From the NCBI GenBank assembly GCA_017860295.1, contig JAFNAS010000014.1, positions 1 to 64,000 of the forward strand: a stretch of DNA of 64,000 nucleotides, given 5' to 3'. Shown one piece after another: positions 16,501 through 17,930 of this stretch. Positions within the stretch are counted from its first letter, which is position 1; each line of letters begins with the position of its first letter. This DNA is from Bacteroidota bacterium. GTDB taxonomy: Bacteria; Bacteroidota; Bacteroidia; Bacteroidales; Paludibacteraceae. The translations under genes and the position numbers were made by a program. The notes under the pieces are model-generated. The model had not been told where the DNA came from and made no database searches. It saw nothing but the letters and a program-made list of their open reading frames with translations.

Positions 16501-16520
16501 CAAAAAATACGCTTAAATAA

Positions 16521-16550
16521 TTTGTTTCTAAAATAAAATTTATACCTTTG
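16521..16550 (+). promoter_or_regulatory. Bacteroidetes-type promoter of the aminotransferase leader
   Basis: TTTG at 16521-16524 and TACCTTTG at 16543-16550 match the -33 TTTG and -7 TAnnTTTG consensus with an 18-bp spacer. The predicted RNA would start near 16557, about 25 bases before the leader peptide ATG. Confidence 0.75.
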
Positions 16551-16581
16551 TACTATGCTTTTGGGCAGTAAAACGTATTAT

Positions 16582-16653
16582 ATGAGATTGAGTCTAAATA
16601 GTATTGCGGTCATTATTATCGTCATCGGAATCCCTGGGATTTGCCGAAGGTGA
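16582..16653 (+). CDS. Ile-rich leader peptide of a transcription attenuator
   Basis: A 23-codon frame that starts ATG 16582 and ends TGA 16651-16653. The peptide has 7 Ile, 2 Val and 2 Leu, with a run IAVIIIVIGI in the middle. It is followed by an intrinsic terminator placed before the aminotransferase gene. This is the layout of the ilv/leu leader peptides of enteric bacteria, where ribosome stalling at Ile/Val codons prevents termination. The last codons (TGC CGA AGG) can pair with the 5' arm of the terminator (CCTTTCGG), giving a plausible antiterminator. Function is inferred from layout. Confidence 0.7.
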   Translation: MRLSLNSIAVIIIVIGIPGICRR

Positions 16654-16679
16654 TAGTTTTGTGCTGCACAAAATAGTTC

Positions 16680-16720
16680 AACCCCCTTTCGGTAAAAGCC
16701 GAAAGGGGGTTTCTTTTTTT
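16680..16720 (+). terminator. Attenuator terminator before the aminotransferase
   Basis: CCCCCTTTCGG (16682-16692) and CCGAAAGGGGG (16699-16709) form a perfect 11-bp stem with a six-base loop, followed by TTTCTTTTTTT. It lies after the Ile-rich leader peptide and 22 bases before the aminotransferase ATG, so it should block transcription unless an alternative fold forms. Confidence 0.85.
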
Positions 16721-16742
16721 ATTCACTTAATACATTTGTCTT

Positions 16743-17930
16743 ATGAAAGAAACCGCATCAATCAGTTTTGCACATCGTATGGAGGGAGTTCCCCGTTCGT
16801 TTATTCGTGAAATATTAAAAGTTGCCATTTCGCCCGAGGTGATTTCGTTTGCGGGTGGTTTGCCTAACAAAAAACTGTTTCCGTTGGAAGAGTTACAGGC
16901 AAGTGCGGTGAAACTGATGTCGGGTTCGGATCGGAATATTTTGCAGTATGCCAATACAGAGGGCTACCTGCCTTTGCGGGAAAAAATTGCCGAACGGTAT
17001 GCGCACAAGGGATTACAGATCAATCCGCAGAATATTCTAATTACTAACGGATCGCAGCAGGGACTCGATCTGCTGGGAAAAATATTTATCAACGAAGGAG
17101 ATGCCTTGGTGATGGAAGAACCGGGTTATCTGGGCGCTATTCAGGCATTTTCTATTTTCCATCCCCGCTTTGTAACCGTACCGCTTACCGATGAAGGAAT
17201 TGATGTCGATTGTTTTCGACAAGCAATAGCAAATGAGAATCCGTGTCTGGCCTATCTGATTCCCAATTTTCAGAATCCATCGGGAATCAGTTACACGGAA
17301 GAGCGACGCAAGGAGGTGGCTCGTATTAGTAAGGGGAAGCCGTTGTTTTTGGTGGAAGACGATCCGTATGGCGATATTCGCTTCCAAGGTGAACGAAAAA
17401 ATTCGTTCTACCATTATCTGCCGGAGCAGACCATCCTGCTTGGAACCTTTTCCAAAACGGTAGTGCCCGCTTTTCGTATGGGATGGATTGTTGCGCCCGA
17501 TGCCGTAATGGATCGATTGATTGTGGCAAAGCAAGCGGCCGATCTTCATACCGATTATTTCACGCAACGGTTGGTGTATCAATATCTGTCCGATTATGAT
17601 ATCGACTGGCATATTGCACAAATATGTGAAGCGTATGGCCGGCAGGCCGGAGCAATGATGCAGGCCATCGAACACTATTTTCCGAAAGAGATTCAATATA
17701 CCCATCCCGAAGGGGGAATGTTTCTGTGGCTGACGTTGCCAGAAGGCCGAAATGCGATGGAGTTGTTCGATCTGGCCATCAAAGAGAACGTGGCTTTTGT
17801 GCCGGGAAATCCTTTCTATATTGATAAAGCGGAGGTCAATACCTGTCGGCTCAACTTTTCCTGTTCCGACGAAATGGAAATAGAGGAGGGCATCAGACGG
17901 CTATCCGGCGTGTTGGCAACGCTTGGTTGA
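16743..17930 (+). CDS. PLP-dependent aminotransferase (class I/II, LysN/AvtA-like)
   Basis: A 395-residue fold-type I aminotransferase of the 2-aminoadipate/valine-pyruvate type. Seen: ISFAGGLPNKKLFP near residue 35, the ITNGSQQGLDLLG segment near 100 (cofactor phosphate), YLIPNFQNPSG near 173 (Asn contacting PLP), VEDDPYGDIRF near 202 (Asp and Tyr), and the Schiff-base Lys in LGTFSKTVVPAFRMGWI near 233. The Ile-rich attenuator upstream suggests regulation by branched-chain amino acid supply, so I infer a role in valine, isoleucine or leucine transamination. The family also includes lysine/2-aminoadipate and aromatic enzymes. Confidence 0.9.
   Translation: MKETASISFAHRMEGVPRSFIREILKVAISPEVISFAGGLPNKKLFPLEELQASAVKLMSGSDRNILQYANTEGYLPLREKIAERYAHKGLQINPQNILITNGSQQGLDLLGKIFINEGDALVMEEPGYLGAIQAFSIFHPRFVTVPLTDEGIDVDCFRQAIANENPCLAYLIPNFQNPSGISYTEERRKEVARISKGKPLFLVEDDPYGDIRFQGERKNSFYHYLPEQTILLGTFSKTVVPAFRMGWIVAPDAVMDRLIVAKQAADLHTDYFTQRLVYQYLSDYDIDWHIAQICEAYGRQAGAMMQAIEHYFPKEIQYTHPEGGMFLWLTLPEGRNAMELFDLAIKENVAFVPGNPFYIDKAEVNTCRLNFSCSDEMEIEEGIRRLSGVLATLG

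Follow-up and report, generated by a model that had tools for sequence, protein, structure and literature searches.

The 64,000-nucleotide stretch of DNA analysed here (the window) is contig C2 of a Paludibacter-like Bacteroidales genome of 3.39 Mb in 25 contigs, with a completeness of 96%. It very probably contains a transcription attenuator that works through the ribosome, as in trp and ilv operons; the attenuator would sense isoleucyl-tRNA and control the gene of a LysN-like aminotransferase, an enzyme with a most likely role in making isoleucine and other branched-chain amino acids. A promoter motif, a short frame and three mutually exclusive hairpins precede this gene and are conserved, with covariation, in front of its close orthologues; codon-matched leaders are present at other amino acid genes, and an ilv-operon context is found for the gene elsewhere. 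The finding is ordinary in kind and useful in detail, and the amino acid sensed by the leader gives an aminotransferase of unassigned role a testable function.

Promoter, leader frame and competing hairpins

The aminotransferase gene (16743-17930, forward strand) encodes a class I/II, LysN-like protein of 395 amino acids (PF00155, 5.6e-36). It stands alone, with a LytTR response regulator gene upstream and the next gene on the opposite strand. The region in front of it begins with a Bacteroidetes-type promoter read from the sequence (16521-16550, forward strand), composed of TTTG at 16521-16524, an 18-nt spacer and TACCTTTG at 16543-16550, which fits what we take to be the Bacteroidetes promoter consensus, TTTG/TAnnTTTG. 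A scan for sigma-70-type promoters listed no site at 16521-16550. The leader peptide frame MRLSLNSIAVIIIVIGIPGICRR extends on the same strand from the ATG at 16582 to the TGA ending at 16653 and consists of 23 codons, including 7 Ile, 2 Val and 2 Leu. A second in-frame ATG at 16555 lies approximately at the expected transcript start, and therefore 16582 is the likelier start of the leader. An intrinsic terminator (16680-16720, forward strand), with a stem of 14 pairs at 16680-16711 followed by the T tract TCTTTTTTT, was found by terminator search, with a predicted energy of -25.8 kcal/mol and a z score of -6.75. Thus, the consensus promoter (as the Bacteroidetes type TTTG/TACCTTTG), the Ile-rich 23-codon frame and the strong terminator before the gene, all described in an earlier note on this DNA, have been borne out.

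Folding of the forward strand has revealed that the terminator (3:4) competes with two other hairpins. Arm 1 of the 1:2 hairpin (16617-16633, from the fold and pair list) includes the last base of the Ile codon at 16615 and overlaps those at 16618, 16624 and 16630, and arm 2 (16637-16655) pairs either with arm 1 or, through 16640-16650, with arm 3 (2:3). Bases 16642-16643 of arm 2 are bulged in the 1:2 hairpin. Arm 3 (16686-16696) is the antiterminator partner of 16640-16650 and also contributes to the 5' strand and the loop of the terminator. The overlapping antiterminator of the earlier note is present, but the pairing given there (GCCGAAGG/CCTTTCGG) fits better as a helix of 11 pairs between 16640-16650 (TTTGCCGAAGG) and 16686-16696 (CTTTCGGTAAA), and the 1:2 hairpin at 16617-16655 was absent from that note. 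The antiterminator is mutually exclusive with both the terminator and the 1:2 hairpin, as deduced from pair lists and folds, and the predicted energies in the window are -12.8 (1:2), -18.7 (2:3) and -25.8 (3:4) kcal/mol. A small hairpin (16656-16674, forward strand, from the fold) is located between arms 2 and 3, within the antiterminator loop; according to the alignment, its sequence is kept in the nearest relatives only.

The Ile run (16612-16620) sits at the base of arm 1, and arm 2 contains the stop codon (16651-16653); such placement of the stall and stop sites is the classical attenuator geometry. A ribosome footprint that reaches up to 12 nt downstream is described in a passage of PMC4833913, and a ribosome stalled on the Ile run would thus mask most of arm 1, whereas at the stop codon it would mask arm 2. 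We infer the translation of the leader, the stalling of the ribosome and the readthrough of the terminator, as well as the substrate of the enzyme considered below. When isoleucine is plentiful, the ribosome would reach the stop codon and cover arm 2, leaving arm 3 free, so that the 3:4 terminator would form and transcription would end upstream of the aminotransferase gene. When isoleucine is scarce, the ribosome would stall on the Ile run and cover arm 1, arm 2 would pair with arm 3, and the resulting 2:3 helix would block the terminator and allow transcription of the aminotransferase gene. If the leader were left untranslated, 1:2 and 3:4 would both form and transcription would stop.

Conservation and covariation in orthologous leaders

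The case for the leader rests on its conservation, and the comparative evidence is stronger than the shuffle test described below. The comparison included 12 genomes with close orthologues of the aminotransferase: the window, G006, G003, G001, G007, G030, G171, G516 and the loci L044, L045, L047 and L048 (L047 corresponds by sequence to G209, and L048 is a match to G596). In all 12, the leader frame has 21-25 codons with 10-13 Ile, Val and Leu and ends in RR-stop inside arm 2. It contains 4-10 Ile in every case; the other two frames never exceed 2 Ile, or 7 residues of Ile, Leu and Val together. Gaps in the aligned coding part of the leader are of 3 or 6 bases, and the extreme 5' end is loosely aligned. 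Peptide sequence and length drift among the 12 orthologues while the branched-chain codons are retained, and selection on the leader is weak (pN/pS 0.74, six leaders), a value that fits a sensing leader and is no proof of translation. Isoleucine and valine are equally represented (5 each) in the G596 and G516 leaders, and the G030 leader has 4 Ile, 3 Val and 4 Leu, so a pure isoleucine specificity is not universal; valyl-tRNA is a likely second input to the attenuator. A TAnnTTTG motif is located 32-48 nt upstream of the leader ATG in 8 of the 12 leaders, window included, and a match is absent before the leader in the other 4.

The terminator (by alignment and fold) and the antiterminator are kept in all the close orthologues, window included. 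Loss of the Ile-rich frame with retention of the terminator, the pattern that the earlier note had set against an attenuator, was found in none of these 12 genomes, and the alignment of relatives that it had proposed displayed the isoleucine/branched-chain frame together with both alternative folds in every one. The 1:2 hairpin is paired in 94.3% of the alignment cells and 3:4 in 93.7% (11 sequences). The 1:2 hairpin is the worst kept of the three: G171 has a weak form of it (-6.3 kcal/mol) and G596/bin86 an altered one. It is predicted to be weaker than 2:3 in 12 of 12 sequences, and 2:3 is weaker than 3:4 in 11 of 12; the exception is CTSoil, whose antiterminator (-20.2) is predicted to be slightly more stable than its terminator (-19.6).

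A covariance model built from 11 of the 12 sequences was searched in 300 genomes of the family and produced 8 strong matches (E at most 2.3e-16, the next one being 1e-4), all of them directly upstream of the aminotransferase gene, by position or by sequence. The many weak matches (E between 1e-4 and 0.1), of which some lay opposite the same terminators on the reverse strand, were taken as ordinary terminators. Among 37 family genomes, the element was present in the 6 of 6 with an orthologue at E <1e-200. The 12 genes with an Ile leader form a clade with 100/100 support in a tree of 33 of the 43 chosen rows (10 were dropped) that carried a long-branch warning and was used solely for this clade.

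The 2:3 helix was paired in 93.1% of 131 cells (12 sequences), versus 39-68% when it was slid by 1-3 columns. The covariation score was reached by 5 of 500 shuffles, and the 4 cells changed on both sides likewise by 5 of 500. The numbers of doubly changed pairs (2) and of pair types (6) in the antiterminator were inside the shuffle range (176/500 each), and with 11 sequences the count of doubly changed pairs was 3, reached by 139 of 500 shuffles, because the sequences are few and related. Columns 32-90 contain U-A in 6 sequences, C-G in 3, U-G in 1, another combination in 1 and a gap in 1, and columns 33-89 contain A-U in 6, G-U in 4, G-C in 1 and another combination in 1. The covarying 5' bases are 16642-16643, the bulge of the 1:2 hairpin (UG, UA or CA); of their partners, 16694 is in the terminator loop and 16693 forms the weak pair at which the loop closes. 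Therefore, the 1:2 hairpin does not explain the covariation, and the terminator hardly does. The G171 row was aligned without its one-base bulge and was counted as mismatched at several pairs, and its own fold restores the helix.

Role of the aminotransferase and its pathway context

The best solved relatives of the aminotransferase are 1x0m, 3aov (P. horikoshii PH0207; E 2.5e-94) and the 2-aminoadipate transaminase 2egy (E 3.5e-92). The protein 2egy, which we take to be LysN of T. thermophilus, and PH0207 are among the closest solved relatives but are named for other substrates, and we know of no leader of the present kind for their genes. A PADLOC scan of the protein returned nothing, and Aminotran_4 (PF01063), searched as the mark of a class IV IlvE, was not found in this class I/II (PF00155) protein. 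The class IV ilvE of the window genome is a separate gene (TIGR01123, above cut-off), so the aminotransferase is not the sole branched-chain candidate and would be a second, inducible transaminase.

An orthologue with 59% identity is the second gene of an ilvD-AT-ilvB-ilvN arrangement in two other Bacteroidales genomes, G040 and G421. The small subunit of G421 passes TIGR00119, and that of G040, with a score of 107.6, falls short of the cut-off of 119 in the only model listed for it. This operon has its own leader in G040 (MKNLLNIVLVVVVVISEMK). The orthologue is located 3' of ilvB by 26 bases in G340 and by 273 bases in G328, which are Bacteroidales as well. Its position beside the ilv genes places the gene in branched-chain metabolism in those lineages. 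The Paludibacter gene lies apart from the ilv genes and has its own isoleucine-led leader. The operon-borne orthologues of G040 and G421 (L166 12842-14209; L214 7874-9226) share a similar in-frame N-terminal extension of about 50 residues. The ilv cluster of the window genome (L167 3770-9791, G000:C16) includes a cation-diffusion-facilitator transporter gene and a 235-residue gene between ilvD and ilvB, and the latter gave no NCBIfam match at E 1e-30.

Codon-matched leaders were also found at other genes of the window genome. The leuA gene (TIGR00973) is preceded by MTTFNSILLSLLLLCYQKQK, with 6 Leu, and a terminator. A frame with at least 5 Leu precedes leuA in all but one (G516) of 13 genomes, and the leuA terminator was looked at in three loci. 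The ilvD gene is preceded by MNNSLLLVNVVVLLVKS, with 5 Leu and 5 Val, and a terminator. Among 13 ilvD loci from 18 genomes searched (the second, partial ilvD locus of G004, L165, was left out), reading showed a leader and a terminator at 11; L154 is truncated by the end of its contig, and L160 has neither. In G006 (L161, reverse strand 683-815), about 600 bases of other sequence separate the leader and terminator from the downstream ilvD gene, an arrangement that its sister genomes do not share. Two trpB-family genes are separately attenuated in this one genome, with leaders and terminators read by eye: trpB (L241, G000:C23) has the WWW leader MSFQAVNKFWWWRLQLQKSRE and a TrpB-like gene (L242, G000:C7) has the WW leader MNFTTKNNWWRFRF. 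No leader was seen upstream of ilvC, thrC and cysK of the window genome, nor at the class IV ilvE, which has a promoter motif directly upstream. From one gene to the next, the sensed residue matches the pathway, a pattern that base composition would explain poorly. A single Bacteroidota genome thus has codon-matched leaders across the pathway, with Ile at the aminotransferase, Leu and Val at ilvD, Leu at leuA and Trp at trpB and the TrpB-like gene. Evidence of antiterminator covariation is available for one of them, that of the aminotransferase.

Judged from sequence, it is reasonably probable that the aminotransferase serves branched-chain metabolism. The earlier prediction of this role gains support from the ilv context in four genomes and from the matched leaders at leuA, ilvD, trpB and the TrpB-like gene. 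Regarding the source of isoleucine, threonine deaminase was not found in a PALP search of the 96% complete window genome, which yielded cysK, trpB, the TrpB-like gene and thrC. A citramalate-synthase-like gene is present (L225 1405-3006, G000:C23), whose best model is CimA with 641.8 bits, below the cut-off of 950, and isoleucine may be made from citramalate in this genome.

The same attenuator might precede a broad transaminase of the LysN/kynurenine type (acting on 2-aminoadipate or aromatic substrates, or in alanine-valine exchange) whose expression simply follows the supply of branched-chain amino acids. The solved relatives include 2-aminoadipate and, more distantly, human kynurenine/aminoadipate enzymes, the window genome has its dedicated class IV ilvE, and the leaders of distant orthologues favour Val, Ala or Leu over Ile. 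However, the orthologue is in or beside an ilv operon in four genomes and the enriched leader residues are mostly branched-chain, so that a broad transaminase is considered rather unlikely, while still the most serious competitor to the branched-chain reading.

The remaining alternatives concern the leader itself. A functional small hydrophobic membrane peptide produced from a short terminated transcript, with the aminotransferase expressed by partial readthrough, would agree with the hydrophobic sequence and positive end (..RR) in all 12 orthologues and with a pN/pS below 1. It is very improbable in view of the stop codon placed inside arm 2 in 12 of 12, of the covarying antiterminator, needless for a plain terminated small mRNA, and of the drift of sequence and length around branched-chain codons that stay. 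Terminators downstream of co-directional genes are common, and the terminator could merely end transcription of the response regulator gene, with an Ile-rich frame arisen by chance. In 5000 dinucleotide shuffles of 16501-16742, considering ATG frames of 12-45 codons, 422 had at least 11 Ile, Leu and Val in any mix, so hydrophobic richness by itself is weak evidence, but only 4 had at least 7 Ile and at least 45% Ile, Leu and Val. In addition, a promoter motif lies between the upstream gene and the terminator, and in L042, where the upstream gene is different (thioredoxin-like, by reading), leader, hairpins and terminator stay with the aminotransferase; chance is hence scarcely credible. Some leader regions upstream of amino acid genes are of the riboswitch or T-box kind, and such an element in place of a ribosome-driven switch is just as scarcely to be expected here, since none of 18 Rfam matches reached the gathering score; the top-scoring one, PyrG_leader (33.3 of 65 bits), is on the opposite strand over the terminator.

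Known attenuators and serial leaders

Enteric ilv, leu and trp attenuators comprise a promoter, a short frame carrying runs of cognate codons, 1:2, 2:3 and 3:4 hairpins with the stop codon in arm 2, and a terminator before the structural gene. The window element has this same anatomy. It differs from the enteric attenuators (see also PMC1183508) in its occurrence in Bacteroidota, in its target, a single LysN-like aminotransferase and not an ilv operon, and in its codons, mostly Ile. A transcriptome study of Flavobacterium psychrophilum (PMC9723704) reports strong indications that amino acid operons are preceded by leader-peptide attenuators. Those suggested attenuators share with the window element the phylum, the inferred mechanism and the position upstream of amino acid biosynthesis operons, but they belong to a different family of the phylum and the passage names no gene, codon or structure. 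In a map of B. thetaiotaomicron, short frames in 5' UTRs are described as reminiscent of leader peptides (PMC7366714). The view that this layout is little described in Bacteroidetes was therefore fair, but it is not undescribed, given the F. psychrophilum clues in PMC9723704. In the literature searched, no paper was seen to describe this leader or a serial form before an aminotransferase; the comparative survey by Lopatovskaya and others from 2010, cited in PMC4833913, may cover Bacteroidetes. This kind of attenuator is already known and its presence in the phylum was previously suggested; the newer points are the putative role of the gene as a second branched-chain transaminase and the serial arrangement.

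Two short frames in series, each followed by a terminator, were found before more distant orthologues in six Bacteroidota: G617, G674, G430, Desertivirga arenae (L072) and Cytophaga (L054, L055). In G617, G674, L054 and L055 the rule-based search picked up the terminators of both units, in G430 that of the first unit only and in L072 that of the second only; the second terminator of G430 and the first of L072 were read by eye. A TAnnTTTG motif precedes the first unit in 5 of the 6 serial loci, with none in G617. In L055 a second one stands after the first frame and ahead of the first terminator, which makes a second transcription start possible there. The tandem attenuators of Salmonella mgtCBR (PMC3641672) likewise have two short frames per leader region, but their signal and target are different, and the window itself holds a single unit.

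The rule-based leader scan covered 80 loci and flagged 9. It requires Ile/Leu/Val richness, so that other kinds of leader would escape it, and both Cytophaga loci were missed by it, seen by eye and re-measured. Among 13 order-level genomes, own genome included, 3 have a single Ile/Val-led leader, 3 have serial leaders and 4 have the gene beside ilv genes. No leader was found in G416 and G676 of this set nor in three further genomes examined, and the last member of the set, G686 (L205), has a hydrophobic frame with no convincing terminator. We tentatively suggest, as a reading somewhat more doubtful than probable, that the LysN-type aminotransferase is a starvation-induced, isoleucine-led branched-chain transaminase working beside an unattenuated class IV IlvE, and that in other families its attenuator is serial, with both stalls required. 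If true, a serial gate of two independent ribosome stalls would sharpen the starvation response, and the serial form raises the question of how two attenuators in a row combine. The serial frames are rich in Val, Ala or Leu, weakly so in the first frame of G674, and in the loci L206, L208, L210, L072, L054 and L055 they are often Ala-rich as well as Val-rich.
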